A DNA stretch of 64,000 nucleotides from IMG/VR virus record IMGVR_UViG_3300045118_000377, positions 31,491-95,490 of that record. The stretch is one strand, 5' to 3'. Source of the DNA: a virus. The notes beneath the pieces are model-generated. The model ran no database searches and was not told the origin of the DNA. It worked only from the letters and a program-made list of their open reading frames with translations. The translations under genes were made by a program, and so were the position numbers. Below, in pieces: positions 4,737 through 42,114 of this stretch (the stretch's first letter is position 1; each line of letters opens with the position of its first letter).

Positions 4737-5687
4737 GTGGCCACCATCAAGATCAAGATCTACGTCTCCGAGCTGGCCAACGTCATGACGTTGTACGACA
4801 AGATCTCCGTGCAACGATCGACGACCGCTCCTCCGTCCACTACCGAGGACGACCTCACAGCCAACTCATCGGCACCAGCGACTCTCGTCGGCTCGCTCGA
4901 GGGACCGTACCTCCTCAACGGCAAGACCCTGACGTTCAAGGTCAACGGCACGCAGGTCTCCGTGACCTTCACGTACGCCGACCCGGTCGCGATCACCCAG
5001 GTCGTGGATGCCGTGAACGCGGCGCTCGCGGCCGCGGGCCTGGGTGCGACAGCCGATGCCTACGGCGGCAAGCTGCGGATCAGGACCACTTCCAACGGCA
5101 CGCAGTTCACGTTGGAGATCATTAGCGGTTCTGCTGTCACGGTTCTGGGGTTCACTGCCGGGCAGAAGGCGCACGGCCTCGCCGCTCACATCACGCTGGT
5201 CGTTGGCACGACCCAGTATGAGTTCGACGACGGCAGCGGGCTGGCCTCCTACTACTACCGATCTCGCTTCTTCAACACCGCCAATGGTACCTACAGCGCG
5301 TGGAGCGACTGGATCCAGGGAACGACTGGAGCCGCCATCCCGTCGGCCGATCTCATCATCGGAAAGGTCAAGCTGGCCGATCTGGATGGGAAGGCACTTC
5401 CGAACCGTGTGATCACCATCGGCAACGCCATGGAGCCCAGCAAGGCGGATGGGTACGGGATCTTCGGGGCGGCGATCACGCTGGAGACTGACGGCACGGG
5501 GCAGGCTGAGACAACGCTTGTGAAGGGATCGCTGGTGGATGTAATCTTCAATGGTACTTCCATCGTCCGGCGAATCCGGGTGCCGTCATCGGGGACTGAG
5601 TTCGACCTCCTGGACGACTCGCTGGTAGTGGGAGACGAGTTCGAAATCCAGGTGCCGGACATCCCCTATGCCCCTCGGAGATCGTAA
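4737..5687 (+). CDS. Tail protein with hook-IN-like domain, 316 aa
   Basis: A GTG one base after the upstream stop, preceded by GGAGGAG, starts this gene. Residues of about 55-145 form a module running from L-N-G-K-T-L-T-F to LGFTAGQ; related modules recur in several other structural proteins of this window. It is followed by an FnIII-like stretch (YYYRSRFFN, then a WSDW motif) and a C-terminal carboxypeptidase-regulatory-like beta domain. These are typical building blocks of tail and baseplate decoration proteins. The end overlaps the large ligase-like gene by 20 bases. Confidence 0.65.
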   Translation: MATIKIKIYVSELANVMTLYDKISVQRSTTAPPSTTEDDLTANSSAPATLVGSLEGPYLLNGKTLTFKVNGTQVSVTFTYADPVAITQVVDAVNAALAAAGLGATADAYGGKLRIRTTSNGTQFTLEIISGSAVTVLGFTAGQKAHGLAAHITLVVGTTQYEFDDGSGLASYYYRSRFFNTANGTYSAWSDWIQGTTGAAIPSADLIIGKVKLADLDGKALPNRVITIGNAMEPSKADGYGIFGAAITLETDGTGQAETTLVKGSLVDVIFNGTSIVRRIRVPSSGTEFDLLDDSLVVGDEFEIQVPDIPYAPRRS

Positions 5688-8319
5688 GACAGGGCGGTTG
5701 CTTCCAGCCAAGGGCGAATTCGCTCCAGGCATTCCGAAATCAAGAACGATCAGACCTCTGCCGCCGGTGCCGCGCGGCCAGCCCCAGCAGTGGGAGCTCG
5801 CCACTCAGCTCCACCACGCAGAGAAGGCCGGTCCGCACACCGACCTCCGCCTGGTAGATCCCGAAGGCCACGCCCACAGCTGGGTGCTGCCCGACACCGG
5901 CCTCCCAAAACCGGGTGAAAAATTCTACCTCCCGCAGGTCGAGACCCACACGCGGGAGTACGCCGCGCGCAAGGGCGAGTTCGAGCTGCCGGCTGGCTAT
6001 GGCAAAGGGACCGTGACCGGCTCGGGCCTGCGCCCGGTAGACGTCCATTACAGTGAGCCTGGAAAGCTCCGTTTCAGCCTGTTGGAAGGCAAAAACCCTC
6101 AAGATTACATACTGGTACGGTCACCCAAGGGGTGGGTTATCCACAACTTTTCACCGACAGCGGAAGCGGGTGTGCGTGGATCGAAGGGTTTCGCCATCCC
6201 GCAGGCGAAGCCAGCGTACAAGGAAAAGCCAACAACTTCGGTGGAGTTCGACGACCCGAGGGTGATCCATCAGGCCAAGATCGACGGCGCGCACGTGACC
6301 GTCCACATCCCGAACAAGGACAGCCAGGTCCGGGTGTTCTCCTACCGCCCGACCGAGGCTGGGACCGGGGTCATCGAGCATACCCACAAGTTGCCCTCGT
6401 ACCACACGCTGCGTGCCCCTGGGAGCCTCGCTGGCACCGTTCTCCGCGGTGAGGCATGGGCGGCAGGCCCGGACGGCAAGGCGCTGCCAGCGGAGCGTAT
6501 AGGCGGCCTCCTGAACGCGGGCGTGGCCCGTTCCAGAGAGCTCCAGCAGGAGCATGGCCCCCTACGCCTGTCGGTCTTTGACGTGGTGCGGCACAAGGGC
6601 AAGCTCATGGAGAACGCCCCCTACGCCGAGAAGCTCGAGGTGCTCCGGCAGGTGGCGAAGGAGATGCCCCAGCTCGAGCTCCCGCCCACGGCCGAGACGC
6701 CGGAGGAGAAGCTCAAGCTCTTCACTCGCATCCAGGAAGGGAAGGAGCCGGTCACCCGAGAGGGGATCGTGGCCTGGCATCTGGACCGGCCACTGCCAAC
6801 CAAGATCAAGTTCCGACCTGATGTTGATGCCGAGGTCGTGGGAGTGTTTCCAGGTAAGGGGAAGCACGAAGGACGAGCCGGTGGGCTGGTGGTGAAGCTG
6901 CCGGGGTCCGAGGCTACCACGAGAGTTGGAACTGGCTTCTCCGATCAGATGCGCAAGGAGCTGTGGGAGAGACAGCACGAGATCGTGGGGCGCGTGGCGC
7001 GTGTGGCGACTCAGCAGGTGTTCCCGAGCGGCAAGATGCGGGCACCGGCGTTCAAGGACTTCCACACGGAGAAGGGCAAGATCGCTTCGGGCAGGCACAG
7101 AGTCGAACATCTCACTACGGATGAAGAGAAGCTGGAAGCTGCTAAGTTGCAAGAAGGGATCGGTTTCGGACTTGGCCCGATCAAGCCATTGCATCCCAAG
7201 TGGGAGTATTACGGCATTCGTAGTGACGACAACAAGCTGGTTGCTGTGAGCCGAGTCAACAAAGAGCCGTTGAAGGAGTGGGAAGGTTCAAAGGACTACG
7301 AGCAGATCGCTCGGCACAGGCCGGATGTATCTATCTCGGCCACTACCGTCCACCCGGAACATCGCAGGAAGGGCATGGCAAAAGCTCTCCGAGCTCACGT
7401 CCAGGATCGATACAACACGATCATATCTGGTACCGGGGCAGAGTCAGACCTACCAGCTATGTCTAGGATCTTGGAGCAACAGGGGTTCGAGCCTATTTGG
7501 CACCGTGGGGCGAACACGCAGTACGTGTGGAAGAAGCAGGCAATGCTCGAGGCCCTAAAGGATGAACTGAACAAGGTCGCGGCTCCTGATATCAGCCCCG
7601 CGCAAGAAGTGGTTCCAGACCCTGCTCAAGATCGCCCATCGCTTGTTGGCGGCATCGCTGCGACTGGCGGCGGCACGTTGCTGGCGGCCGATATGAGAAA
7701 GCGGTTGCTTGGCGAGAAAGTAATCTACCACGGCACACATTCGGATGAAGCCGCAAAAGGGATCATGGAGCATGGGCTCCAACCTTCGTACGGTGGCACG
7801 GGGGCAGCGAAGCTGACGCCAAACTATGTAGCGCGTAGCAAAGGAAAGGTGCACGTCACGGGCGTTAAGCCTGTTGCGATGATGTTCCGATCGTTCGACC
7901 CAGAGACCTATCGTCGTGAGGGTTACGATATCGGACACCTCGTGCGCGGGAACTTGCCTGGGGCACCAGGCACGGTGGTCAAAGCGCGCATCCCGATGTC
8001 CCTTTGGGACAAGTTAGAGATCGATCCAGACATGCTGGGACATACCCCGCAGAACGAACTTCAAGAGGCCATGATCAAGGAGATCGGAGCTCGTGGGGCG
8101 CACCCCATCGAGTCGAAGTACATCAGTGGGGGCCGTGGCAGTATCAGTCGAATCCCCGAAAAGATCGTGGAACTCGGGAGGGAGTTGCCTGGCTATGTCA
8201 AGAGACACCCTCTGCGTTTCGGGGTTGGAGCGCTTGGAACAGCCGGGGGTCTCTATCTTGCCGGCAGGGGAATAGGATCTCTGCGTAGAAGATTCTCCAC
8301 GCCTACTGAGGAAGGATAG
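5668..8319 (+). CDS. Polyvalent protein: LigD-type phosphoesterase, ATP-dependent ligase, GNAT, ART-like domain, 883 aa
   Basis: Four enzyme-like domains lie in one chain. Residues 40-160 match the 3'-phosphoesterase of bacterial LigD and keep all candidate metal/catalytic residues (His49/50, His57, Asp59, Arg61, His94, Tyr98). Residues 190-470 match an ATP-dependent polynucleotide ligase: K204-I-D-G (motif I), Glu262, FD at 304-305, EGIVAW at 365-370, K379/K381 (motif V) and an OB-like tail. Residues 510-620 are a GNAT acetyltransferase with an R-R-K-G-M-A acetyl-CoA loop (566-571). Residues 680-830 start with YHGT (687-690), as in ADP-ribosyltransferase folds. A glycine-rich hydrophobic helix (850-870) ends the protein. 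The location among tail genes suggests packaging and injection with the DNA (inference). Confidence 0.8.
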   Translation: MPLGDRKTGRLLPAKGEFAPGIPKSRTIRPLPPVPRGQPQQWELATQLHHAEKAGPHTDLRLVDPEGHAHSWVLPDTGLPKPGEKFYLPQVETHTREYAARKGEFELPAGYGKGTVTGSGLRPVDVHYSEPGKLRFSLLEGKNPQDYILVRSPKGWVIHNFSPTAEAGVRGSKGFAIPQAKPAYKEKPTTSVEFDDPRVIHQAKIDGAHVTVHIPNKDSQVRVFSYRPTEAGTGVIEHTHKLPSYHTLRAPGSLAGTVLRGEAWAAGPDGKALPAERIGGLLNAGVARSRELQQEHGPLRLSVFDVVRHKGKLMENAPYAEKLEVLRQVAKEMPQLELPPTAETPEEKLKLFTRIQEGKEPVTREGIVAWHLDRPLPTKIKFRPDVDAEVVGVFPGKGKHEGRAGGLVVKLPGSEATTRVGTGFSDQMRKELWERQHEIVGRVARVATQQVFPSGKMRAPAFKDFHTEKGKIASGRHRVEHLTTDEEKLEAAKLQEGIGFGLGPIKPLHPKWEYYGIRSDDNKLVAVSRVNKEPLKEWEGSKDYEQIARHRPDVSISATTVHPEHRRKGMAKALRAHVQDRYNTIISGTGAESDLPAMSRILEQQGFEPIWHRGANTQYVWKKQAMLEALKDELNKVAAPDISPAQEVVPDPAQDRPSLVGGIAATGGGTLLAADMRKRLLGEKVIYHGTHSDEAAKGIMEHGLQPSYGGTGAAKLTPNYVARSKGKVHVTGVKPVAMMFRSFDPETYRREGYDIGHLVRGNLPGAPGTVVKARIPMSLWDKLEIDPDMLGHTPQNELQEAMIKEIGARGAHPIESKYISGGRGSISRIPEKIVELGRELPGYVKRHPLRFGVGALGTAGGLYLAGRGIGSLRRRFSTPTEEG

Positions 8320-8323
8320 GCTA

Positions 8324-9253
8324 ATGGCCGTCACTGTCAGAGTGTTCGTGGTCGACGAGCAGATTCCAACCCCGTCCCCGATCGAGAACGTGCTGGTGCG
8401 GGTGTTCGATTCCACAGGTGTGGTCTTCATCACGCAAGATCTGACGGACGCGAACGGCATCGCGGACTTCACGCTTGATGGGGACGACCCGCCGGTCGAC
8501 TACCAGGTCCGGCTCTCGAAGACCGGTGTCGCCTTCGACGGACTGCTGGGAGACGACAGCAAGAGCCCACAGCTCATTTCCGTCTACGATCCTCCCGGCT
8601 CCGCTCCATCTGGTACCAACGACTTCCAGGTCAAGGGGCAGACCTACCATCGGCCGGCCGCGACCAACCCTCGCCTGTGCCGTGCCAGCGGGTTCTTCAA
8701 ACGCGGTGATGGGCAGCCGTATCCTTGGCTTGACCTCATGTTCGTTCCCACGTTCAAGCCCACGATCGTGGATGGTGATGGTGTGATCGCCAGCACAGTC
8801 ACCGGTCGTACGGATGCCGACGGCTACTTCGAGATCGATCTCTACCGAAACGGTATCTACCACGTCACGATGGAGGGGCTGGAAGACGTACCGCGTGAGG
8901 TGGTCGTGCCGGACTTGTCGTCGATCAACATCATCGACCTGCTCTTCCCGGTGGTGGCCAAGGTCGAATTCGACGTCCCGTCCGTCAGCCTGGCCGTCGG
9001 CGAGTTCGCGGAAGTCTTCCCAACGATCACGGCGTCTGACGGGCACGTCCTGGAAGGGGCAGCGGTAGCTGACGTCCTCTACGCCATCGCAGACACGGTC
9101 GTGGCCAGCGTGCAGGCGAAGACCGACAGACTCGTCATCCAGGGAGCAGCGGCGGGCTCGACAGAGCTGAACGTCGAGCGCGCTGACACGTCAATCGTGC
9201 TGATCCCCGACACGGGCATCACCTACACGCCACTCCCTATCACCGTTTCATGA
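8324..9253 (+). CDS. Structural protein with carboxypeptidase-regulatory-like and Big-type Ig domains, 309 aa
   Basis: The gene starts at ATG 8324 after a GAAGGATAGG ribosome-binding site. The first 90 residues resemble a carboxypeptidase-regulatory (CNA-B-like) beta sandwich (VRVFDSTG, then DANGIADFTLDG). A second similar unit follows near residues 120-205 (GRTDADGYFEIDL). The C-terminal 90 residues resemble a bacterial Ig-like (Big_2) domain, with a SVSLAVGE strand. Such domains decorate phage tails and heads and bind host surfaces weakly. The end overlaps the next start by four bases (ATGA). Confidence 0.65.
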   Translation: MAVTVRVFVVDEQIPTPSPIENVLVRVFDSTGVVFITQDLTDANGIADFTLDGDDPPVDYQVRLSKTGVAFDGLLGDDSKSPQLISVYDPPGSAPSGTNDFQVKGQTYHRPAATNPRLCRASGFFKRGDGQPYPWLDLMFVPTFKPTIVDGDGVIASTVTGRTDADGYFEIDLYRNGIYHVTMEGLEDVPREVVVPDLSSINIIDLLFPVVAKVEFDVPSVSLAVGEFAEVFPTITASDGHVLEGAAVADVLYAIADTVVASVQAKTDRLVIQGAAAGSTELNVERADTSIVLIPDTGITYTPLPITVS

Positions 9254-9576
9254 TCGCTGTGGCCCCTATCCTCCTGGACCTCGAGCCGGACGAGGGATTC
9301 CGTCCGTGCACTCAGGATGGAGAAGGGGAGCGTCTGCTGCTGGCGTCTATCATCAGGAGGGCGGCGTTCGACATCGTGCTCTATCGCAACGCCCCGCGCC
9401 TGGTAGATCGCCTGGTTGGTGTCGGTGCGTACATGTGGATGTTCAAATCGGAGCACAATCACTTCACGTCGTTCTTGAACATCTGCGAGCTGTTGAACCA
9501 AGACCCGGAATGGATCCGAGAGGAGACGTTGAAGCTCAAGAAGTCCGACGTCAAGAAGTATGATAGGATCCGTTGA
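9250..9576 (+). CDS. Small conserved-type phage protein, 108 aa
   Basis: Coupled to the upstream gene by ATGA. The C-terminal half carries a helical pattern (SFLNICELLNQDPEWIR) like a small protein that I recall from other myovirus late operons. It may form a helix-turn-helix-like fold. The N-terminus is mixed. No catalytic motif is visible. The following HNH gene is inserted directly after it. Function is unknown. Confidence 0.6.
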   Translation: MIAVAPILLDLEPDEGFRPCTQDGEGERLLLASIIRRAAFDIVLYRNAPRLVDRLVGVGAYMWMFKSEHNHFTSFLNICELLNQDPEWIREETLKLKKSDVKKYDRIR

Positions 9577-9589
9577 GAATCGAGGAAAC

Positions 9590-10036
9590 GTGAAGAAACG
9601 CTGCACACACTGTGAGAAGAAGAAACTGTTGGATCAATATCATAATGATCATAACAGTGCCGATGGCAAGAGGAGTGTGTGCAGGGAGTGTGTTAATGAG
9701 TACCAGAGATCGCATTACGCAGCGGGTACTCCATCTGCTAAGAAAAAGAATGCGTACCGGAGAGAGTGGCGTGTGCGCATGCGCAAAGAAGTATTGCGAC
9801 ATTACGAAAATGCTTGCGCCTGTTGCGGAGAAGATCGATATGAGTTCTTAGCTATCGATCACATTAAGAAGGGGGGAAATAGGCATCGCAAGGAGGTAAA
9901 AACAACACACCTGGACTACTGGCTGTGGATGAACGACTTCCCTCCGGGATTCCGGATCCTCTGCCACAACTGTAATTCGGCTATCGGATTCTACGGATAC
10001 TGCCCCCACGAACGAGAACGTGGATCTCACAACTGA
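9590..10036 (+). CDS. Free-standing HNH homing endonuclease, 148 aa
   Basis: The protein begins with a KKRCTHC zinc knuckle and a CREC partner. It then has the HNH core: CACCGEDRYEFLAIDHI (Cys-Cys pair and Asp-His), followed by ILCHNCN. Such genes are selfish elements that cut intron-less or HEG-less alleles and copy themselves by recombination. The start is uncertain: GTG 9590, with GAGGAAAC just upstream, fits the usual KRC N-terminus, and ATG 9560 is the alternative. The coding sequence is clearly more A+T-rich than its neighbours, consistent with recent insertion between two tail genes. Confidence 0.8.
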   Translation: MKKRCTHCEKKKLLDQYHNDHNSADGKRSVCRECVNEYQRSHYAAGTPSAKKKNAYRREWRVRMRKEVLRHYENACACCGEDRYEFLAIDHIKKGGNRHRKEVKTTHLDYWLWMNDFPPGFRILCHNCNSAIGFYGYCPHERERGSHN

Positions 10037-13920: not shown

Positions 13921-16900
13921 ATGTCCGGTTCCGTCGATCTGAAGACATTCCTCGAGGAGAGGTTCCTCGCGTACGATCCCGACACCGATCTCTCGGAGGG
14001 CTCTCCTGCACAGCTGACGGTCATCGACCCGACCGTCCGCCGATTCCAGCCGGACCCGTTCGAGATGGACCTGCCGACGTTCATCAAGACCCGCCTGCGG
14101 CAGGAGTTCCCGAACCTCCAGGCTGAGGATGGTGACGCTCTGGCTGACTTCCTGGTCAAGCCAATGGAGGCCCTGCTGGACCCGTTCGTCAGAGAGGTCC
14201 AGTTCCTCCGCAACAACCAGAGCCTGGCCTACCCCGAGCTCCTGGCACCGGATGAGGCCGACTCGCTGATGGGCAACCTCTTCGTCCGCCGATCGCGCGG
14301 GAAGAAGTCGGTCGGAAGCGTTCGTGCGTACTTCAGCGCCCCGACGGCCTTGACGATCTCCGTGGGGAACAGTTGCTACACGGCCGATGGGTTGAACTTC
14401 ATTCCCTCGAGCCCGCAGTCGATCTCGGCCGAGGCCATGCTCTTCAACCAATCCGGGAATCTCTTCTACTTCGACATCGCGTTGGAGGCCGAAACTGAGG
14501 GGGACGAATACAACATCGAGGCTGGGTCGATCGTGGGTATCACCAACGTGCCGTCGGCCGTGCGCGTCACCAACCTCCGGAAGTTCTCGGACGGCGAGCC
14601 GGAAGAGACCACGATCGGCTACGTCGAGCGCGGAGAGACCAGTCTGACCGAGAGGTCGATGGTCATCCCGCGCGGAGTGCTGGCCCGGCTCTTCGATGTC
14701 TTCGGAGACATCCAGCACCTCCAGGTGGTCGGGTTCAACGACCCCGAGATGCAGAGAGACATCCTGACGGGCGGCGGTCTTGGTTCGATCGTCCACTACT
14801 CCGCGACCGGATTCACCCAGGACGATGGGAACGGCGACACGTACTCCAACGTGTTCGAGGACAACTCTGCCGATTTCATCACGCTCCTTGGCCCCATAGG
14901 CGATGTGAAGAACTTCACGTTGTCTGTGGCCGGAGTCGACTACAGCATCACGCGGGTCATCAATGCCAACGCCGTCTGGATCACCAATCTGGATGGTACG
15001 GCTTCGACCCTCTCCGACACGCTCTCGAACGTGGCCTACTACATCCGGAAGAACGAGCTGACGCTGTCTTCCATCCCCGGTGGCGTGGTATTCCCGATCG
15101 GTCCCAACGGGGAGATCGTGATCGAGGGCAACGAAGTCCACATCGGCGGGTGTTCGGACTTCTTTCTTCGCGGCCTGACGGCGGAGGACGCAGATCAGGT
15201 GGTCAAAGAGATCAGCGACGAACAGCCGCTGACCGAAGGGAAGGATCTGAGCGTCGTCATCGCCGGGCTGCCGGAGGACATCGTTCGGGTTGGTCTCGCC
15301 AGCACCGACTTCATCACCAAGGGAGTGAAGGTTGGTCACTCTCTCGTGATAGAAGGAGCGGGCGTGGCTGTGGCAGGCAGCTACCAGATCATCAAGGTGG
15401 CACCCAGAGGGACTGGTGTGACGGAGTCCAGGGAGCTGCAGGTTGAGCCGGCCCCGTCGTCTTCGTTCTCGAATCTGTCCTACAAGATCGTGGACGAGCT
15501 GGACATCAACCTGAATGAGCCGAAGAACATGCGTGAGACCGGCTCAGATCTGAAGGCCGTCATGGGCAGTCGCCAGGTCAGCACGGTCTCCGAGGTCGAC
15601 TTCCTGGCGGTCGGCGGGCAGGTCGGCGACACACTACGGGTGACCAGCGATTCTGCCAACGCCGGTGACTACGGCGTGCAGCAGATCACCGGCACTGGCA
15701 ACAAGCTCATGGTCTTGGATGGCGAGTTGCGCCGGACGTCCGACTCCGAGCCTTGGCAGCTGTTCAACAAGCAAGCCGGCATCCAGCTGCCGCTCTTGCG
15801 TATCAAGACCATCGATCTGCTGGATTCGTCGTTGAACCCCACGGGCGAGACCCTTCCCTACGCGGACCCAGTGGACATCCAGTCGTCGGCGTTCTCCAAC
15901 GCCGGTGTCGGTCTGAAGAAGGCTGTGGCGGATGCCAAAGTGGGGATCATCGGAACGGTCGACCTCAGTGGCGGGGCATCGGCGCTCAACGGGAAGCAGA
16001 TTCAGATCTCCGTCAACAACGCACCGGCGATACCCGTCAACTTCTCCGGTGTGACCACGCTGCAGACGGCCGTAGACCAGATCAACGCCATCACCGGACT
16101 CAGCGGTATCGCTCAGGTCTACACCATCGGAGCGGCGCAATACCTGGCGATCAGATCTACTACCCGATGGCTGCAGGTGACGCCCTACGGCTCCGCCAAC
16201 AGCACACTGGGTTTGTCCACGAGCGTGTCTGAGGACAGTCGGCAGGTGACGAGCACGAGCGTGTCGGACTGGACGCAGTTCGGAATCGAGGTGTTCAGCG
16301 ACTCGGTCTACGTCATGTCCGGAGACAACATCGGCTTCTGGTGGCTGGAGTATCTGGCCGCCGATCGTCTCCTCATCGCGCAGGTGGACGACGCCGGTCG
16401 CGTCGTCTTCCCACTGCCTAGCGTCAACACCTCCATTCGCATCGGGAGCCGATCGTTCGGGAAGGTGCGCTGCTACTTCCTCGAGCCAACTTCCTTCGAG
16501 GTCCGCGGCAGCTACCGGAAGGCCGCCAGGCGCACCTCTGTGCATCAGGCGAATGCCGCTCTCGGCACGATCACGGCGGATGAGGAGCAGCGCACGGAGT
16601 TCACGCTCGACGTCAACGGCGACGGTGTGAGCCTCAAGAACTTCTTCCCCGATCCCGAGCTCCACTTCCAACTGCTGCCAGTGACATCGGAAGACGTACC
16701 GAACAACCTCGTGGTGGACCTCGCTGGATTGGGCACCCGCGTCGTGGAGAGCGTGCAGGATGCCGGCTCCATGCCGACTGGTCCGGGCATGTACTCGAGG
16801 GACGCAAAGATCGATTTCCTGCTTCGAGAGGTGCTGCCGGGTGACATCCTGGAGATCACCTACCAGCCTATTCAGGGCACGGTGAACATCTCCGCCAGCT

Positions 16901-18018
16901 CGTTCCCCTACACGCCCACTCCCAACGTCCTGGCCGGCAAGAGCCTGACGTTCTCGTTGGAGAACGGGCCCGACAAGACCATCACCTTCGATGACCAGGT
17001 CGATGGGCCCACGAAGTTGGTGGCCGAGATCAACGCCCAGCTGGGGGCCACCATCGCGTTCGTGGAGGACACTGGTTCTGCTCAGTACCTGCGGTTCGAG
17101 GCCGACTTCCCTGTGATCCTCCGCTCCTCCCATCCGACCACTCTGACGACCCTGGGGCTGACAGCGGGCAATAACGACGCCAAGGCCAAGGGAGAGTACA
17201 AGGTCCTAGACGTCGGGTGGATCTCGGGAGCAACTTCCAACCACTGCCGCATGACGCTCGATACGACGTTCGTGGCTGGTCAGGTGGGACCTTCCCAGCA
17301 CTTCACGATCAAGCGGCCCGGTGTCCAGCGTGTCAGCTCCACGGAGATGGCGGAGAACAAGGAGGGGGCGCTCTACTACGCCGACATCGAGCTGGTCTCG
17401 GACGGGGTGGGTGACGAGTTCAACATCGATCCCGATCTCCAGCTGACCGCGGAGAGGTACAAGTCCGACGGCTACCATCTCTACACCGAGGATGAGAACC
17501 TCAGCTTCTCGACCTCGGAGAAGCTGCACATGGTCGTGGGGCGTCGCATGCTCTCGGTCGGCTCCACCGACACGCCGGCCAACATGCGCCAGCTCAGTCT
17601 GTCGAACATCCAGCTCAACTACGAGCGGTCGCCGCTGGTGGAGCAGGTCCAGAACTTCGCGCAGTCGGAGCTAGACCGCGTGCTGACAGCCAGCATCCTG
17701 GTGCGGCACCTCCAGCCCCACTTCGTCCAGGTCGTGGTGAACTACAGTGGTGGATCGCTGGAAGACGTGGTGGTCTCCGACATCGAAGATCTCATCAACG
17801 GCCTACTGCCGGACGAGGCACTCGAAGCCTCAGCCATCGGCGAGATACCCCGCCGCCGTGGGGCGACCAGTGTGGAGATGCCAATCACTGTCATAGGGAT
17901 CGTCCACTACAAGGATCGAAAGGTGCGGGCCGTGAGGTCCAAGAACTCGATCACTGCCGGCCGTCTCGCTACCTTCATGCCGGACGTGTTGGACGTGACT
18001 CGAGCCGGAACTGCCTAG
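13921..18018 (+). CDS. Baseplate J-like protein, 1365 aa
   Basis: ATG 13921 follows a TAGGAGCGGCCA ribosome-binding site. Residues of about 100-290 match the baseplate J family (Mu gp47/P2 J type), with a conserved GDEYNIEAGSI segment and a helical stretch ending in QHLQVVGFNDPEMQRD. The C-terminal 150 residues resume the J-like fold (helices, then ILVRHLQPHFVQV). Between them is a very large insertion containing at least two hook-IN-like modules (near residues 680-760 and 990-1080). In known phages J binds the hub and wedge and controls sheath contraction. This version is several times longer than the classic proteins. Its stop overlaps that of the next, convergent gene. Confidence 0.75.
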   Translation: MSGSVDLKTFLEERFLAYDPDTDLSEGSPAQLTVIDPTVRRFQPDPFEMDLPTFIKTRLRQEFPNLQAEDGDALADFLVKPMEALLDPFVREVQFLRNNQSLAYPELLAPDEADSLMGNLFVRRSRGKKSVGSVRAYFSAPTALTISVGNSCYTADGLNFIPSSPQSISAEAMLFNQSGNLFYFDIALEAETEGDEYNIEAGSIVGITNVPSAVRVTNLRKFSDGEPEETTIGYVERGETSLTERSMVIPRGVLARLFDVFGDIQHLQVVGFNDPEMQRDILTGGGLGSIVHYSATGFTQDDGNGDTYSNVFEDNSADFITLLGPIGDVKNFTLSVAGVDYSITRVINANAVWITNLDGTASTLSDTLSNVAYYIRKNELTLSSIPGGVVFPIGPNGEIVIEGNEVHIGGCSDFFLRGLTAEDADQVVKEISDEQPLTEGKDLSVVIAGLPEDIVRVGLASTDFITKGVKVGHSLVIEGAGVAVAGSYQIIKVAPRGTGVTESRELQVEPAPSSSFSNLSYKIVDELDINLNEPKNMRETGSDLKAVMGSRQVSTVSEVDFLAVGGQVGDTLRVTSDSANAGDYGVQQITGTGNKLMVLDGELRRTSDSEPWQLFNKQAGIQLPLLRIKTIDLLDSSLNPTGETLPYADPVDIQSSAFSNAGVGLKKAVADAKVGIIGTVDLSGGASALNGKQIQISVNNAPAIPVNFSGVTTLQTAVDQINAITGLSGIAQVYTIGAAQYLAIRSTTRWLQVTPYGSANSTLGLSTSVSEDSRQVTSTSVSDWTQFGIEVFSDSVYVMSGDNIGFWWLEYLAADRLLIAQVDDAGRVVFPLPSVNTSIRIGSRSFGKVRCYFLEPTSFEVRGSYRKAARRTSVHQANAALGTITADEEQRTEFTLDVNGDGVSLKNFFPDPELHFQLLPVTSEDVPNNLVVDLAGLGTRVVESVQDAGSMPTGPGMYSRDAKIDFLLREVLPGDILEITYQPIQGTVNISASSFPYTPTPNVLAGKSLTFSLENGPDKTITFDDQVDGPTKLVAEINAQLGATIAFVEDTGSAQYLRFEADFPVILRSSHPTTLTTLGLTAGNNDAKAKGEYKVLDVGWISGATSNHCRMTLDTTFVAGQVGPSQHFTIKRPGVQRVSSTEMAENKEGALYYADIELVSDGVGDEFNIDPDLQLTAERYKSDGYHLYTEDENLSFSTSEKLHMVVGRRMLSVGSTDTPANMRQLSLSNIQLNYERSPLVEQVQNFAQSELDRVLTASILVRHLQPHFVQVVVNYSGGSLEDVVVSDIEDLINGLLPDEALEASAIGEIPRRRGATSVEMPITVIGIVHYKDRKVRAVRSKNSITAGRLATFMPDVLDVTRAGTA

Positions 18019-23386: not shown

Positions 23387-25687
23387 ATGTCCGCCGGGTT
23401 CCTTCAGCGCTTCTACTCCGCCTTCCCCGGCGGAACCATGCAACAGCTTCTCGGGAACGGGACCATCACCGAGGCTGGAGGAGTTCTAACAGTCACCACG
23501 CCCGCGAGCGTGGATTGCGATTGGTGGGGATCGTCTCCGGCCAATGCGCCTATCGCCTATCAGTCAGTTCATGACCGCATAACTGCCTTCGATGGCGTGT
23601 TGAAATTCGAGGCGCGGTGCTATCAGTTCTCAGCGCTGGCCAATACCGAGATGTGGGCTGTGGTCTGGGTGGATCGGTCGACGGCCTACCTGCTTTGTTA
23701 TGGTAACGGCAGCCTGTACGTCAATAGATTCTACGGCGGGTCTAACTCGACGGTGACTTCTAGCACGGCCGTTGCCAGCCCTACCACCAGTCCTCACACA
23801 TACAGGATCTACTGGAACCCCACGTCTCGGCCTCTCTTCATTCAAGAGTCCGATGGTACCAATTTTGTGATCAATGCCAACGAGATCCAATTCTGGTATC
23901 GCATCGGTGATGGCGGCACCTGGACTCAGAAGTACGCACGCTCTATGGAGTTCACGAACGCACTCCGGTTCGGAGTGGGCTGCAAGAACTGGAGCACGTT
24001 CCCCGCGAATTCTAGCCTGTGGAGCTATGCAGGCATCTATCAGTGGGATGCCACAGCCCAGAAGTTCGTCCCGTCCAAGAAGGACGTGCAGCTGACGAAC
24101 ACGCAAGCTGATCCTCTGGAGGTCCTGGCGCTAGAGGATCGAGCCGTCCGGCTCACTGAGAGTGGCTACCCTGCCTTCGACTCGCCGGACGGGCTTGGCG
24201 GCCCGGTCGTTTTGGAAGGAGAGCAGTCGCAGTCGCGCGTCGCGTTCGAGGACAGCGCGCAGATCTTGGACGCCGGAGGCCAGCGCCTAGGATTCATGCC
24301 GGACGTTATGGGTGGCGGGCTTTCCCTCGACGACGTGCTGGCTCTCGAGGACGCGGTCACCTACTACCTGTCGCCCGACGCCGAGTTCAGCACCATCACG
24401 CAAGACACCGACCTCCACTACCACTTCACCCAGCCCAAGCCCTACATCGCTGTCCCCTACGACACCACGGGAGAGGCGTGGGCGAATCCGACCACGACCG
24501 GATTCACGGGCTACGCGCGCAACGGCTACCGATACACCAACGGTGTACAAGACGCAGGCCCGGTTTCAGCTCCTTGGAGGACCGAAGCATCCGGATCCAA
24601 CCGCAGTTCAAGAGGGGATTTCCCGGTCAGAGCGCTGATCGTAGCCACGCGATTGGAGCTTGTGATCTTCGACATGGACTCGTTCAACGGCACGCCGTCC
24701 ACCCTCCGCATGTGGATGCGTTTCTTGTTGGGCAACAGCAGCTCCGACTTCTACGCGCTAGGTCGTGGGCTTGACACCATTCGATCGGTGAGCATGGCCA
24801 ACGGCTTGCTGGCAGTCGGTACGCAGGACACTGGATGGGAACCGGGTCGTCTGCACACGATCGACTTCCGCGCGAACACGCCGGCCACGACATTCAGCCT
24901 CGTGGGGAACGACGGCCAGTGGATAGGACAGGGTACCAAGACCATCGTCGATCGGAACACGAACACCATCTGGTTGTCATCGGGCAGCTACCGGATCACT
25001 CTGTCTCAGCTCCACAGCCTCTCGATGCTGGTTGAAGGCACCTCGACGCACATCGCGATCTCCGGCGAAGACCCGACTCCCAACGTCGTCTCGTTCTCTG
25101 GCAACACCGTGAGCGCCGTGGCTGTGGCAGCGGGCGCGGACATCGGCTCTTCCAACGCCGGGGACACGAGGCAGGTGTACTTTGACGACGTCGGATGGCT
25201 GTGGTTCTCGATCGGCAGCCGACTCTACCGCAACTGCCACGACTGGAGGCACGGGTACATCTGGCCTGATAAGAGCGATCTCCGTCAAGGGACGGTCGAT
25301 ATCGGGTACACGATCACGAAGATCGTGGCGGCCAAGAACAACGTCTACTGTGCGACGGAGAAGGGCGTCTTCAGCGTGTCCAAGGGATCGCTGTCCAACT
25401 ACCTCGCCTACACCATTGTCGGCGGTGGGGGTGGTGGACGTTTGAACGCGCCGCCTGCCGGGGAGATCTTGGTGGGCACAGCGCCTGTCATCAGCGCGCT
25501 CAGGTCTTACACCTTGCTCCAGGGCATCACCGTCGTTCCGTACCTGGTGGTTGGGACCTTGTACTCTGGGGGCGGTGACGGGGGGTTCACCCTCATCCGA
25601 ATGTTCGATGACGTCGTGATCAAATCGCTGATCGTACCCAACCTCATTGAGCCCGGCACGTACATCGCGACCGTGATGATGGCCTGA
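23387..25687 (+). CDS. Tail protein with LamG-like and propeller-like parts, first of two paralogues, 766 aa
   Basis: ATG 23387 is six bases after AGGAGG; TTG 23384 is an alternative. The N-terminal 220 residues look like a concanavalin/LamG-type beta sandwich. A linker then carries degenerate L-A-[LF]-E-D units (VLALED, VAFED, VLALED). The C-terminal 400 residues are a repetitive beta region resembling a propeller (strands alternating with SVSMANGLLAVGTQ-like turns). It shares this plan with the next gene, so the two arose by tandem duplication. A role as a host-recognition tail protein is likely. Confidence 0.6.
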   Translation: MSAGFLQRFYSAFPGGTMQQLLGNGTITEAGGVLTVTTPASVDCDWWGSSPANAPIAYQSVHDRITAFDGVLKFEARCYQFSALANTEMWAVVWVDRSTAYLLCYGNGSLYVNRFYGGSNSTVTSSTAVASPTTSPHTYRIYWNPTSRPLFIQESDGTNFVINANEIQFWYRIGDGGTWTQKYARSMEFTNALRFGVGCKNWSTFPANSSLWSYAGIYQWDATAQKFVPSKKDVQLTNTQADPLEVLALEDRAVRLTESGYPAFDSPDGLGGPVVLEGEQSQSRVAFEDSAQILDAGGQRLGFMPDVMGGGLSLDDVLALEDAVTYYLSPDAEFSTITQDTDLHYHFTQPKPYIAVPYDTTGEAWANPTTTGFTGYARNGYRYTNGVQDAGPVSAPWRTEASGSNRSSRGDFPVRALIVATRLELVIFDMDSFNGTPSTLRMWMRFLLGNSSSDFYALGRGLDTIRSVSMANGLLAVGTQDTGWEPGRLHTIDFRANTPATTFSLVGNDGQWIGQGTKTIVDRNTNTIWLSSGSYRITLSQLHSLSMLVEGTSTHIAISGEDPTPNVVSFSGNTVSAVAVAAGADIGSSNAGDTRQVYFDDVGWLWFSIGSRLYRNCHDWRHGYIWPDKSDLRQGTVDIGYTITKIVAAKNNVYCATEKGVFSVSKGSLSNYLAYTIVGGGGGGRLNAPPAGEILVGTAPVISALRSYTLLQGITVVPYLVVGTLYSGGGDGGFTLIRMFDDVVIKSLIVPNLIEPGTYIATVMMA

Positions 25688-25689
25688 CC

Positions 25690-28539
25690 ATGGCACTGAT
25701 CACCACATACCAAGATCTGTTCCCCAGCTCCACGATCATGAAGCAGTACGCCGGCAATGGCACTGTGAGTGTGCCTGGTGCCGGTGACGCGCGCCTAGTC
25801 GCACCGAACGGCGCGAACTGCAACTATGATCAGAACAACCAGTCCGCCCCGTGCCTCTACGAGAACATCTCCCAGCTGCGTCAGCTCGCCTCGCCAGCGA
25901 TGATGCTGCTAGTTGAGACCAAGCTCAGCAGCCTTACGGGAACGACGACCCAGCGTTTCGCGGACTTGTTCTTCGGCACTGCTCCGCAGTCGATTTCTGG
26001 CGTGTCGAACTACTCCTACCAGCTTGGATTCTACAAGGGTGAGGGCAAGATCATCTGCGACTACTACTACCCCGGTGGTGCCGCACGTCTCTTCACCTCT
26101 GGGGCGGTTTCAGATCCATCCAGTAACCACATCTATCGGATCTACTGGAACACCGGCAAGATCGCGTACGTTCCTGAGACCGGCACGGTAGTCCTGCCAG
26201 ACTATTTGGCGTTCATCTACTCCGTGGACAACGGCACGACGTGGGTGGCGCTCGGCACGCGGGCGAGAGACTTCGATCTCAACACGGCGTTCGCCGGTAT
26301 CGTGCTGAGAAAGTGGGAGACGTCTGCTGTCAACGCGCAAGCGGACTTCAGCTACTTCGTGGCCAAGCAGCTCAACCCCGCTGACGTGGTGATGGCACCA
26401 GATCTTAGCGGGGCCAAGGAGACCAGGCTTGCTCTCGAGGACGCGGCCTCCACGTTGGGTGAGGGAGGTCCAGAGCGCTTCGATGTGCTGGGTACCAAGG
26501 ACGCGGTCGTGCTGCCGTCGACCGACGTCGTTGGCCTGGAAGATGGTCTGGTTCTTCCATCGGTCGGTGGGCCGAAGCCGCGCTACGACTTCCCTCAGAT
26601 CAACGAGGACCCGTCCTTCAGCGACGTCATCGGGTTGGAAGACGGGTTCTTTGTCCAGATCGACGAGACCGACTACATCAAGGGCAAGTACGACGCTGAC
26701 GGCAAGGAGCTTCTCGCGGGCGCAAACGCCAGGCACGTCTTCTACTACGATGCGACCCTCGATCCCTGGCACACGCACGGAGCGGGGCACTACGGAGCGG
26801 GGCGAGACGGCAAGCTCTACTACGACGGGGTAGAGTGCGGCCCAGGGGACTTCGGGACCGTCGCTGGTGGGTTTCGGCGCACGGCCTGGGCCTTCCCCGA
26901 TGGCTTCTTGGACAGAGATCTGATCGCAAAAGCTGCGCAGATAACGATGCCAGCAGATGGCACCCTGCGCTTCACTGTGAACACGAACGGCACGGACATC
27001 GCTAGTTCCTTGCGCTGGTTCTTCACCGGCGACTTCGACGTCCAGGTCGACTACAACATTGTGTCGAATGGCTCCGGGCCGACAGACGGCGGCATAGTGA
27101 TCCAGGCGGTCATGGACTGGAACAACTACACCTACGCCCGACGCAGAATGTTCGGCAGCGGCAACCCAAATTGGGACAAGGACGTTCGGAATAACGGCAG
27201 TTGGGGCAGCTACGCCTCGGTTGGTGGGGCCACTGCTTCTGGGAAGTTGAGGATCACCCGTGTTGGGAGCACGGTCACGTCCTACTACTGGACCGGATCG
27301 GCGTGGGCGGCGATTGGTAGCGGCTCTGCGATGACCTACAACCGACCGATGCTCATCGATCTCGGGTTCTGGTTCAATAGCACACCCACCGGGACAGTGT
27401 TCGAGTTCAGCAACTTTACGATCAATAGCGGCACAACCACGAACCTGATCGGGTGGGCCAGGGAGGCGGCGGGCACCTACCGTGGGTCTCTGGCGGAGTT
27501 TCCGCAGCATGCTCTGATCGCTTGTACGGAGCCGAACATTGACATCATTGACGCTGACACCAACAAGCTCTGGGCGAGCTTCCGTGGTGCAGCCAACAAC
27601 ATGGTGTGGGGTCCGGCTAGCTGGGGGTATGTGCGTCAGGCGGTGATGAAGGACGGCGTGCTGATGGTCGCCCTCCCATCGAGCGGAGGGTATGGGCTCT
27701 GGATCGATTTCACCACAGACTGGGCTCGTTCAGCGCAGGAAGGCGGCGGAGGCGCGTTCTACAACCCAGAGTTGTCCACCAACATGTGGCCTATTTGGTC
27801 GCCGAGTGGAAGCGTCGCAGTCCGGAATAGTGGCAGGAACTATCAGGGGCCGTACGCCAACTGGGTGCTCCAGAGCTATTACGTTTACTGGTGCGATCTC
27901 CTGCATGACTCCGGTTATCAGTACCGCCTGTTCGCCACAGCGGCCGGTATCACTCTCCAGCGCTGGCAGCGCTGGAAGTTCCAAGGCGCTAACGACGCTC
28001 ACCTCGACACTCCCTACAAAGGCGTGTCCATGCAGACTGGGACCATGCGCTGGGCACAGTTCCAGCCGTCAACCCGTGACCTGCTGTACCACGATCGGTC
28101 GTCCCTCTACATCACCCACTTCGCCGCGTGGAATGCGATCATTTCAGGTGGTGGCGGCACGTGGGTGGAAAATCACACCTACACCCTCTCTGGGACGATT
28201 GACGAGGGCGACCGCGCACTGGCCCAGGACGCGATGGTGGTGGACGGGAACTACCTCTACTACGCCCGCAAGGAGGGTGTGTACAGGATGGATCTGACCA
28301 CCGGCACATCGGTGCTCCTGTACGGCATCGTCGGTTCTGGAGCAACGCACGAGATCCTTCCCACATCCCGCGCGGTGATCTCCGTGGCCTACGGTGTCGA
28401 CAACTCCGTTCCCATCCTCCTGGTGGGCATGACCTACCCCGACCTCAGTGTGGCTGTGAATCTGAACACCAACGTGCTCTACTGGAAGGGTCGTCTGGAT
28501 GACAGCCACACACCCTACTCCATGGCGGTGGGAGCATGA
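25690..28539 (+). CDS. Tail protein, second paralogue with LamG-like and propeller-like parts, 949 aa
   Basis: The start lies two bases after the upstream stop. The opening (YQDLFPSSTIMKQYAGNGTVSV) aligns with the start of the preceding protein, and the LamG-like domain, the L-[AE]-D linker units (LALED, VVGLED, VIGLED) and the C-terminal propeller-like part recur. It is longer by an inserted second LamG-like domain near residues 430-580 (TNGTDIASSLRWFF, then DVQVDYN). The end overlaps the next gene by four bases (ATGA). Confidence 0.6.
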   Translation: MALITTYQDLFPSSTIMKQYAGNGTVSVPGAGDARLVAPNGANCNYDQNNQSAPCLYENISQLRQLASPAMMLLVETKLSSLTGTTTQRFADLFFGTAPQSISGVSNYSYQLGFYKGEGKIICDYYYPGGAARLFTSGAVSDPSSNHIYRIYWNTGKIAYVPETGTVVLPDYLAFIYSVDNGTTWVALGTRARDFDLNTAFAGIVLRKWETSAVNAQADFSYFVAKQLNPADVVMAPDLSGAKETRLALEDAASTLGEGGPERFDVLGTKDAVVLPSTDVVGLEDGLVLPSVGGPKPRYDFPQINEDPSFSDVIGLEDGFFVQIDETDYIKGKYDADGKELLAGANARHVFYYDATLDPWHTHGAGHYGAGRDGKLYYDGVECGPGDFGTVAGGFRRTAWAFPDGFLDRDLIAKAAQITMPADGTLRFTVNTNGTDIASSLRWFFTGDFDVQVDYNIVSNGSGPTDGGIVIQAVMDWNNYTYARRRMFGSGNPNWDKDVRNNGSWGSYASVGGATASGKLRITRVGSTVTSYYWTGSAWAAIGSGSAMTYNRPMLIDLGFWFNSTPTGTVFEFSNFTINSGTTTNLIGWAREAAGTYRGSLAEFPQHALIACTEPNIDIIDADTNKLWASFRGAANNMVWGPASWGYVRQAVMKDGVLMVALPSSGGYGLWIDFTTDWARSAQEGGGGAFYNPELSTNMWPIWSPSGSVAVRNSGRNYQGPYANWVLQSYYVYWCDLLHDSGYQYRLFATAAGITLQRWQRWKFQGANDAHLDTPYKGVSMQTGTMRWAQFQPSTRDLLYHDRSSLYITHFAAWNAIISGGGGTWVENHTYTLSGTIDEGDRALAQDAMVVDGNYLYYARKEGVYRMDLTTGTSVLLYGIVGSGATHEILPTSRAVISVAYGVDNSVPILLVGMTYPDLSVAVNLNTNVLYWKGRLDDSHTPYSMAVGA

Positions 28540-38801: not shown

Positions 38802-39274
38802 TCAAGGAAGCGACCTACCGCGCCTTCATCGACGAGCTGGAGAAGATAGCCAGCTCGATGTCGGACGAGGAGTGGGAGAAGCTTGCGCGCATCTTCGAGC
38901 GCATGGGCCTCGGCATGAAGCGCAAGGTTGTGCCGGCGCTCAAGCGCGGCTACGAGAGCGCGCAGGTCGGGGCCGGTCAGTTCATGAGCGGCCACCACGG
39001 TCACCTCTTGGGTGAGGCCGCGCAAGAAGGTCTCCAGCACGGCGGCATGTGGCACTCCATTGACCCCTCCCACGCCCTGACTGGAGGAGCCGAAGGAGCC
39101 GCAGCGATGCTGGCCCCGGCCGCGGCCGCCGCCGCCGTGAAGGGCATCAGGAAGGCCGCGCCTATCGTGAAAGAGAAGGCGACGCGAGTGGGTGGCTATC
39201 TGAGGAGTGCGTTCGGCGGCGGTGGCCCTCCCAGCGTTCCGCCCGTCTTCGCCCCGTCGTTCGTCGGACCATGA
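38783..39274 (+). CDS. Small polyvalent-set protein with DELEKIA motif and Ala/Gly-rich helix, 163 aa
   Basis: The GTG start inside the end of the upstream gene is chosen from an AGAGG ribosome-binding site and because coding begins there. Residues 14-23 read AFIDELEKIA, a motif shared with two other large proteins here. A helical part (EEWEKLARIFERMG) and a His/Gly-rich stretch follow. An Ala-rich hydrophobic segment (AAAMLAPAAAAAAVKGI) and a Pro/Gly tail end the protein. The 3' end overlaps the start of the 947 aa polyvalent gene. Its function is unknown; a virion-associated or membrane-inserting role is inferred. Confidence 0.6.
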   Translation: MDRSVLIKEATYRAFIDELEKIASSMSDEEWEKLARIFERMGLGMKRKVVPALKRGYESAQVGAGQFMSGHHGHLLGEAAQEGLQHGGMWHSIDPSHALTGGAEGAAAMLAPAAAAAAVKGIRKAAPIVKEKATRVGGYLRSAFGGGGPPSVPPVFAPSFVGP

Positions 39275-42114
39275 GCCGCCTGCTGCCCAAGATCGCCCAG
39301 GAGCACAAGCTCCAGGGGCACACCGAGGTCCAGGGCATACCCATAGCGATCGAGAACCGCAAGGGATCTGTCCGTGAGGGGACGACTGAGGACGGTCATC
39401 ACTGGCGCACGAAGATGAAGTTCCCCTACGGCTACATCGAGGGGACCAAGGGCGCAGACGACGAGCCAGTGGACGCCTATGTCGGGCCGGACAAGGACGC
39501 GCCCTACGCCTACGTCGTCCACCAGCACAAGCCGGATGGGACGGGCTTCGATGAAGACAAGGTCATGCTCGGGTTCGACAGCAAGGAGGACGCGCGCAAG
39601 GCCTACCTCGAGCACTACGACTCCGACAAGTTCCTCGGCCCCATCTCCCAGGTCACGATGGAGCGTCTGCAGGAACTTGTGGACAGCGGCAAGAAGCTGG
39701 AGAAGATCAGCCATCCGCATGTCCGCATGGAGAAGCCCGGAAGGTGCGGGGCGGCCGCGTTGAGGATCGCTCTTCGCGTTCACGGCATGGACATGCCGGA
39801 GGGCACGGCCGCGAAGTTGGTGAACACTGACAAGGAGGGGGCTGACCCGGAGTCTCTGGCCTCGGTCGCTGAAGCTGCTGGTCTGGATGCTGAGATCGTG
39901 GACGGCATGAAGTTCCACGAGCTCGCATGGCACACCGCAAAGGGCAGGCCGGTGGTCGTGGCATTCCAAGCGTGGCGCGGGGACACCAAGCGCCCAGCGT
40001 GGGAGGACAACTGGGACGACGGTCACTACGCCGTAGTGCTGGGCGTGGAGAACGACAAGGTTCGGATCAGTGACAGCTCGGATAGCGACAACAGCTACCT
40101 GCTAGATCGCGCGGAATTCGAGCGCCGATGGCATGACGTGGACAAGGACGGCACAGTCCGAGATCATCTTGGGATCGTGATCTCTCCGAAAATGGAGAAG
40201 CGTGCCTACAACAGGGGCGTGCATTTTCATCTGATGAACAAGACCATCCAGAAGGCGTTTGGGGACGACCTGACTCCAGAGGCCAGGCGTGTGATGTTGG
40301 ATCAGGCTCGAGAGTCAGATGTAGGGCTTCGACACCCGTGGAATCCATGGAATGCGATCCAGCACGCATTCCCCACGCTCTCGAAAGAGGAGCTTCGAGA
40401 AGAGACGCAGGGCAAGCACGAAGAGGCGATCGGATCTCTTGCCAGGGCAATCGGGGACAGGCATCTCTCCGACGTCCGCAGGTCTGTCATGGCCACGGGC
40501 GCACTGAAGGACCTGGCCCAGGCACAGCATGCCCGTATCGATGTCCACTCTCACCACGACAAGCCGCTGGAGATCGCCGAAGCCAAGGGCGGCCCAGAGC
40601 GTGTGCAGGAGTTCGTCAAGCTGCGCAGTGCGCTCCGCGATCGGCTAGGTCCGTACGGTGGGTTCGTGTCCTCTGGTATCGAGCATCTCAGATCTGGGTT
40701 CGATCTGAGGCTGAAGATGCCGGTCCTGCGCAGCGAGCTCGACAAGTTCAATCCAGAGAAGTGGGAATCGGACAAGAGCACGTTGCGCACAGCCGATGAG
40801 TACGGGCGGGAGATCAAGCACGATCTTCTGAGAACGCTGAAGTCCGAACACGACCTGAAGCCGCGCGAGGCAAAGAACGCGGTCCACGAGTTCCTGCGGT
40901 CGTTCTCGCCCGGGGTCGTTGACGAGGCTGCTGCTGAGGTGAAGGACACCGCCAAGTTCCTGGCGAGCACTGCCGGCAGGTTGTGGCGCGGTGGTGAGAA
41001 GACGTCAGCCGTCGAGCCGAAAGGGATCAAGTTCCTCTACATGGATACAGGCGGTGGCCATCGCGCACAGGCGCAGGCAATGGTGGAGGCCGCACAACAG
41101 CGTGGTATTCCGGCCGAGGCCATCCATTGGGGAGAGTTCGCGAAAGGCACGTCGCTCAAGAGCTACGAGAAGGCGTACACGGACTACCTTCAGGACAAGA
41201 AGGGCCTGCCTGCGTTAGGGTTGGCGCACATCAGGTTCCACATGATGGGGACCGACAAGGAGAAGCTTCGCAACTGGGTCGACCAGAACAGAGACCAGGC
41301 GATCGTCGTGACTCACGAGCATCTTCAACGTCACTTCAAGGGCATCGAGCATCCAGTTCATGTCCTGCACTCAGATCCCGTGAAGTGGCCAATGGCTTCC
41401 AAGGTGGACAAGCCTGATCGTATCCACATCGGCCTCCCAGAAGTTCTGAAAGAGCTCGGTGTGAAGAACAAAGTGCCGATCAGCAACGTCCCTGTAGGAA
41501 AGGGCGTGCTCCAACCCAAGGGCAAGTCGGGCTTGATCGACCCTGAGAAGTTCAACGTCACGGTGAGTGGTGGCGGTCTTGGCGCTGAGGTCGCTCCGCT
41601 CACAAAGCAGGTGTTGAAGTCAGATCTGCCGGAAGACGCAGTTGTTCATGCAGTTGCCGGCAAGAACAAGGGCGCGTTGAAGGAGCTACGAAGCATCGCC
41701 AAGAAGGATCCTCGTCTTCAGGTCCATGGCTTTGCACCGTTGCCTACGATGATGCGGGAGGCAGATCTGAACGTCGTTCGTACGCACGGCACGACCTTCG
41801 CGGAGACCGTGGCGTCGGGCAAGCCCGCGGTCTACTACGGGCCGAAAGCGCCGCTGGTGGGCAAACTGCATCCGGTCACCGATTTCCAGGCAGATCTGAC
41901 AAGAAGAACTGCGTTGTATGCGGGAGAACAGGTGGGGCATCCTGTTGCTATCGGTCTGGAGAACGTACCCGATGCCGTGGAAGAGGCGGTAGAGAACGCT
42001 CCGAAGTTCAGGCGACTGGCTGTCGAGGCCAAGAAACAGATGGGTAACCCCGCGGACCAGGCTGTGAAGCAGATCATGAAGCCACGTAGGGGATACCTGC
42101 GCCCGAAGGAGTAG
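39271..42114 (+). CDS. Polyvalent protein: InPase domain, C39-like peptidase, MGDG-synthase/MurG-like glycosyltransferase, 947 aa
   Basis: Residues 8-140 match the InPase domain of phage polyvalent proteins (HKLQGHTEVQGIPIAIEN, YGYIEGTKGADDEPVDAYVGP, DEDKVMLGF). Residues 145-300 form a papain-like C39-type peptidase with Cys159 heading a helix (GRCGAAALRIAL), His252 in GHYAVVLGV and Asp268. A helical middle (300-570) has no clear assignment. Residues 580-940 are a GT-B glycosyltransferase of the MGDG-synthase/MurG type: a GGGH loop at 594-597, a VSGGGLGAE loop and a THGTTFAETVASGKP motif with Glu845. The set suggests an injected multi-enzyme effector; the natural substrates are unknown. Confidence 0.8.
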   Translation: MSRLLPKIAQEHKLQGHTEVQGIPIAIENRKGSVREGTTEDGHHWRTKMKFPYGYIEGTKGADDEPVDAYVGPDKDAPYAYVVHQHKPDGTGFDEDKVMLGFDSKEDARKAYLEHYDSDKFLGPISQVTMERLQELVDSGKKLEKISHPHVRMEKPGRCGAAALRIALRVHGMDMPEGTAAKLVNTDKEGADPESLASVAEAAGLDAEIVDGMKFHELAWHTAKGRPVVVAFQAWRGDTKRPAWEDNWDDGHYAVVLGVENDKVRISDSSDSDNSYLLDRAEFERRWHDVDKDGTVRDHLGIVISPKMEKRAYNRGVHFHLMNKTIQKAFGDDLTPEARRVMLDQARESDVGLRHPWNPWNAIQHAFPTLSKEELREETQGKHEEAIGSLARAIGDRHLSDVRRSVMATGALKDLAQAQHARIDVHSHHDKPLEIAEAKGGPERVQEFVKLRSALRDRLGPYGGFVSSGIEHLRSGFDLRLKMPVLRSELDKFNPEKWESDKSTLRTADEYGREIKHDLLRTLKSEHDLKPREAKNAVHEFLRSFSPGVVDEAAAEVKDTAKFLASTAGRLWRGGEKTSAVEPKGIKFLYMDTGGGHRAQAQAMVEAAQQRGIPAEAIHWGEFAKGTSLKSYEKAYTDYLQDKKGLPALGLAHIRFHMMGTDKEKLRNWVDQNRDQAIVVTHEHLQRHFKGIEHPVHVLHSDPVKWPMASKVDKPDRIHIGLPEVLKELGVKNKVPISNVPVGKGVLQPKGKSGLIDPEKFNVTVSGGGLGAEVAPLTKQVLKSDLPEDAVVHAVAGKNKGALKELRSIAKKDPRLQVHGFAPLPTMMREADLNVVRTHGTTFAETVASGKPAVYYGPKAPLVGKLHPVTDFQADLTRRTALYAGEQVGHPVAIGLENVPDAVEEAVENAPKFRRLAVEAKKQMGNPADQAVKQIMKPRRGYLRPKE

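Follow-up and report, generated by a model that had tools for sequence, protein, structure and literature searches.

The open reading frame at 5668-8319 of the window (the whole 64-kb stretch of DNA analysed, taken from an uncultured viral record of 95,490 bases that may be incomplete) encodes, in this order, a LigD-type 3'-phosphoesterase (PE) and an ATP-dependent DNA ligase (LIG). The assignment is firm, given the catalytic residues in 31 relatives, the match of the family profile to LigD PE structures and the model of the PE-LIG part. More than 30 further phage records contain relatives of the protein, with the repair half kept and the rest swapped: PE-LIG is the constant part, and the partner domains vary. 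With moderate confidence, we interpret the product as a polyvalent phage protein whose LigD-like end-healing and end-sealing core, probably packaged, mends the incoming genome and whose tail would modify host proteins early.

The PE-LIG core and its putative GNAT-ART tail

Pfam LigD_N matches the window protein weakly (E 1e-3 for the whole protein, 7.6e-5 for the PE as an excised piece); several relatives exceed the Pfam cut-off for the LigD PE, and a profile made from the family alignment retrieves the solved LigD PE domains 3p4h (E 3.8e-20) and 3n9b (2.2e-10), with DNA ligases also matched. The residues H49, H57, D59, R61, H94 and Y98, comprising an H-H-D metal triad together with R, H and Y, are invariant in all 31 aligned relatives; the metal triad in the P. 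aeruginosa LigD PE consists of His42, His48 and Asp50 (PMC8656161). A preceding sequence-only reading had named the same six residues and left the first histidine as His49 or His50, of which H50 varies among the 31 aligned relatives and is rejected as a catalytic residue. That reading had also made the assignment dependent on profile matches to LigD PE and to a nucleotidyltransferase; both were found, the former in 3p4h and the latter in PHROG_114 (ATP-dependent DNA ligase), which covers residues 184-470 with an E value of 9e-27.

The ligase is further identified by Pfam DNA_ligase_OB_2 (34.5 bits, above cut-off) and by DNA_ligase_A_M, which is just below the cut-off in hmmscan (25 bits) and above it in the genome search (28.5). 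Conservation of K204, D206, E365 and K381 (31/31 each), of E262 (30/31) and of K379 (29/31), together with the DNA ligase matches, bears out the ligase motifs, K204-I-D-G included, that had been picked out by inspection. Two positions at which canonical ligases usually have arginine are histidines in the window protein (H209 of motif I and H466, close to motif VI), and for this reason the ligase activity may be unusual. Residues 25-436 are collinear with the PE-LIG part of the three-domain LigD PRK09632 in NCBIfam, with E 3.6e-17 and a score well short of the curated threshold. AlphaFold2 modelled residues 1-480 with a pLDDT of 87.4, and Foldseek relates the PE-LIG model to DNA ligases (E 1.5e-14) and to the mycobacterial LigD ligase 6nhx (2.7e-10).

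Assignments in the tail, for which the model is poor (pLDDT 46), are less secure. A GNAT domain is likely: the acetyl-CoA loop R/Q-x-x-G-x-G/A of GNATs is present, as the R-R-K-G-M-A stretch already pointed out from the sequence, the excised piece matches Pfam GNAT with E 1.2e-3 (19.5 bits against a cut-off of 20.7), and BLASTP relates it (7e-6) to the GNAT of the relative L044, in which, as in L071, a clear GNAT adjoins PE-LIG. The ART-like domain, proposed earlier from its YHGT motif, is likely but unproven. The YHGT strand is present, and the top ten matches of a four-sequence profile all belong to the ART superfamily (KptA, PARP10, exotoxin), the best of them a weak one to KptA (E 0.012); Pfam gave no match to the region, and the similarity is limited to the YHGT...GI..G stretch common to the whole superfamily. 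In L072, the ligase is followed by a homologue of the window's ART-like tail. Within the same gene, GC content is 0.56-0.59 in the GNAT-ART tail and 0.63-0.65 in PE-LIG, as would fit an acquired part. The ATG of the gene overlaps the end of the upstream gene by 20 bases, and no clear Shine-Dalgarno sequence precedes it.

Table 1. Features of the PE-LIG protein and of its genomic surroundings (window positions).
Feature	Positions	Strand	Basis
883-aa polyvalent protein: PE, ATP ligase, GNAT, ART-like, hydrophobic tail	5668..8319	+	Pfam, PHROG, synteny in four relatives
EFAPGIP motif, residues 17-23	5716..5736	+	N-terminal signature of phage PE family, POL-PE proteins included
LigD-type 3'-phosphoesterase domain, about residues 40-160	5785..6147	+	Pfam, NCBIfam, profile search, conservation; model pLDDT about 90
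ATP ligase nucleotidyltransferase domain, about 190-380; motif I K204-I-D-G, E262, D305, E365-G366, K379/K381	6235..6807	+	Pfam, PHROG, model, conservation
Ligase OB-fold domain, about 385-470; 'RAPAFKDFHTEK' segment at end in motif VI position	6820..7077	+	Pfam, conservation
Probable GNAT acetyltransferase domain, about 510-622; R-R-K-G-M-A acetyl-CoA loop	7195..7533	+	Pfam, BLASTP
ALKDELNKVA, variant of F-x-D-E-L-x-K-I-A	7552..7581	+	Motif common to six virion-block proteins
ART-like domain, about 684-830; Y-H-G-T at 687-690	7717..8157	+	Four-member profile; weak, motif level
LPGYVKRHPLRFG... then hydrophobic segment	8185..8271	+	C-terminal end common to phage ART-like proteins
Baseplate J-like protein (context)	13921..18018	+	Pfam Baseplate_J 23.4 bits, above cut-off; 19 related loci
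Second polyvalent protein: InPase (145 bits), C39 peptidase, GT28-like glycosyltransferase in one chain	39271..42114	+	

A constant core with exchanged partners

Searches of viral contigs that used the whole window protein or its PE as a single query gave no confirmed relatives; entry to the family was gained from the neighbouring baseplate gene, which led to related phages and from there to PE-LIG homologues. Alignment-based scans of viral contigs then yielded 14 and subsequently 35 PE-LIG loci, so that the fusion of PE and ligase in one chain, initially read from a single protein, now extends to a family. Two scans of a cellular genome collection with the family alignments confirmed no relative, these being short-pattern scans which divergent members could escape. 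In a phage collection, the window protein matched separate ordinary ligases only, and L045 and L038 matched nothing. Plasmids gave matches to ordinary cellular LigD-type proteins at 24-26% identity and no close relatives. Weak matches (L012, L008, L021 and L023) were rejected as family members, being due to chance or to an ordinary ligase.

Partners across the family include GNAT, ART, P-loop kinase, SNF2 helicase, Nudix, InPase, C39 peptidase, glycosyltransferase and DnaJ. The exchange is seen in L032, L033, L034 and L046, where the PE-LIG gene lies upstream of a homologue of window gene 8324-9253 (in L033 and L034 also downstream of homologues of window gene 4737-5687) and where the tails at the shared slot differ. 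The tail is a P-loop kinase in L032 and L046, which could supply 5'-end healing; in L033 it consists of a glycosyltransferase, which shares 58% identity with the one encoded by the window gene at 39271, and a further hydrolase-like region, and in L034 it begins VYHFTS. At other loci the fusion partners of PE-LIG are SNF2 with Nudix (L036), an ART-like domain with SNF2 (L068), InPase with SNF2 (L051), SNF2 (L065), P-loop with GNAT (L044), GNAT (L071), a C39-like domain (L035) and DnaJ (L067), and L045 has no partner. InPase and SNF2, fused to PE-LIG in L051, L065, L068 and L036, are hallmarks of polyvalent proteins, and GNAT-bearing members (window, L071, L044) are found at three distinct places in the PE tree. 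The earlier suggestion of a polyvalent protein is thus upheld, with effector domains shuffled among the relatives.

The PE can also have a polymerase as its partner. L038-L043 have a LigD-type primase-polymerase fused to PE and no ligase (POL-PE; PF21686 at 46.4 bits in L038, cut-off 27.4), individual fusions being located at 7170-8786 of L038 and also in L042 and L043. The POL-PE gene of L038 is situated between RNA polymerase-type genes that match the PE-LIG flanks of L049 and L071, with 47-49% identity in the flanks and 55-56% in the PE. In the PE tree, POL-PE is placed within the phage PE-LIG family beside the L049/L071 lineage (support 91/82, not a starred fork). From this nested position, the exchange of ligase and polymerase as PE partner probably took place among phages.

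Genomic setting, proposed function and rival explanations

The window gene belongs to a virion block, and the genes for primase, helicase and polymerase lie far away. Its placement inside a tail operon, as first read, agrees with the Baseplate_J-like gene 5.6 kb downstream and a tail-protein gene upstream. Virion genes adjoin PE-LIG in most loci inspected, the immediate neighbours in L054 and L057 being not clearly virion genes. An HNH endonuclease gene is found in the tail block (9560-10033), and a DNA helicase frame on the minus strand (60506-62752) contains an internal HNH-endonuclease-like stretch suggesting an intein or homing insertion. A sigma-70-like factor gene is present in the virion block just upstream of the window (L003 9986-10807); homologues adjoin the PE-LIG fusions of L036, L044, L053 and L068.

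Variants of a short motif, F-x-D-E-L-x-K-I-A, occur in 6 of 48 virion-block proteins and in 0 of 54 others of the window phage (shuffled mean for the block, 0.15), and a related pattern has 11 occurrences in 33 PE-LIG proteins (shuffled mean, 0.12), the counts being biased in the motif's favour by a regular expression partly fitted to the observed cases. The sites are at 24228-25979 of the record (upstream of the window) and at 7552-7581, about 38825 and 42916 of the window. The motif is hypothesized as a possible virion-targeting tag or cleavage signal, and it provides a direct test case for such a tag. No literature on it was found among open-licence PMC articles searched with exact strings. 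The internal proteins of phage T4, which are diverse and have only the capsid targeting sequence in common (PMC3012670), offer an analogy of early-acting, diverse proteins marked by one short common sequence; in distinction from the T4 sequence, the role of the window-phage motif is putative and it is internal as often as terminal.

Packaging and delivery in the virion, as well as the timing, the substrate and the activity of the tail, are what we infer; the gene context, the interchangeable effector partners and the common short motif are the grounds for proposing that the virion carries the protein and that it repairs incoming DNA. The protein would be packaged in the virion and enter with the phage genome. 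By stripping 3'-phosphates or 3' ribonucleotides, the PE would expose a ligatable 3'-OH, after which the ATP ligase would join 5'-phosphate/3'-OH ends or nicks. Genome ends or nicks would so be sealed, for circularisation or after damage by host nucleases, before phage gene expression; modification of host proteins by the GNAT and ART-like tail would fall in the same early phase.

The main rivals, a replicative role and RNA repair, are both ranked lower. The protein might be the phage's ordinary ligase, serving Okazaki fragments or packaging repair and located in the late region by chance with an incidental tail; the window record indeed contains no other ATP ligase and no NAD ligase, a weak point given that the record may be incomplete. 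We consider this unlikely, however, since in at least nine relatives the record carries a further ATP ligase, encoded separately and about 450-510 aa long, which argues for a special role of the PE-LIG protein. NAD ligase was found in 0 of 29 records. Moreover, the gene's position in the virion block, remote from the replication genes, speaks against it, and a replicative ligase is not expected to be fused to a PE and to swapped effectors. Repair of tRNAs, or of other RNA, after cleavage by host defence nucleases appears at least as improbable. PE would clean the 3' ends, the ligase would join, the kinase found in relatives would phosphorylate the 5' ends and a KptA-like ART would remove a 2'-phosphate; activity of LigD-type PE on 3' ribonucleotides (PMC8656161), the P-loop kinase of relatives, RNA 2'-phosphotransferases as the best ART profile matches and a weak Pfam RNA_ligase match are in keeping with it. 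Yet the ligase has its matches among DNA ligase families and structures and has an OB fold, the ART similarity does not extend beyond the superfamily-wide stretch, and the window protein does not combine kinase and ART beside PE-LIG.

True non-homologous end joining (NHEJ) of double-strand breaks by the phage, as done by LigD with Ku, is to us quite improbable, the least so favoured of the readings. PE-LIG and POL-PE are pieces of LigD swapped at one locus between RNA polymerase genes, as such a system might involve; but Ku was found in 0 of 32 records (host Ku could serve), and PF21686 (LigD polymerase) was confined to the POL-PE clade, with none in the window record or in any PE-LIG record tested.

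Relation to known systems and significance

Like bacterial LigD (PRK09632, TIGR02777 and TIGR02779 in NCBIfam), the phage protein has PE and LIG in one chain, with the PE first and the same PE catalytic residues. It differs in scoring far below the curated NCBIfam cut-offs (22.9 of 144, 30.5 of 227.75 and 61.9 of 989 bits), in a PE metal loop two residues longer, in the lack of Ku, and in its effector tails and virion-gene context. The window protein has no LigD primase-polymerase domain or partner, which is absent also from some PE-LIG-type architectures. Mycobacteriophages Omega and Corndog use LigD-type end joining during infection: according to Pitcher et al. 2006, as cited in PMC7719229, they bring Ku and borrow the host LigD, whereas the family described here brings LigD-like pieces, with no Ku found. 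A survey of about 3,000 actinobacteriophages did not find NHEJ components (PMC7719229).

Polyvalent proteins are described by Iyer et al. 2017 (PMC5512222) as injected early effectors of phages and conjugative elements. Like them, the window protein is a chain of several effector domains encoded close to late genes, with a probable GNAT beside an ART-like domain; InPase and SNF2 partners recur in its relatives. Injected proteins with ART and GNAT are also noted in PMC7824862. The claim of an unusual combination accordingly holds in part: GNAT beside ART was already on record (PMC5512222), whereas for a LigD-type PE-ligase in polyvalent proteins no report was found in open-licence PMC. The text of PMC5512222 names no DNA ligase or LigD PE domain in such proteins, the whole word 'ligase' occurring 0 times and 'ligases', in the passage concerned, designating RNA ligases only.

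A large RNA polymerase related to that of L062 is present in 28 of 29 records tested, with none in the window record, which is perhaps incomplete. In L062 (1333-7809) it is a single chain of 2,159 aa matching beta-type PHROGs, and the PE-LIG gene follows directly. A broader and rather doubtful proposal is that large phages with their own RNA polymerase have a virion-delivered, Ku-independent LigD-like toolkit, comprising PE with ligase or polymerase at one locus and exchangeable effectors, which may be a reservoir for cellular LigD, or the reverse. The exchange between POL-PE and PE-LIG bears on the origin of modular NHEJ ligases. If our preferred reading is true, the functions known for phage polyvalent proteins would come to include DNA end healing and sealing, compact enzymes of LigD type would become available with new partners, and there would be a hint as to how some large phages protect or circularise their incoming genomes.
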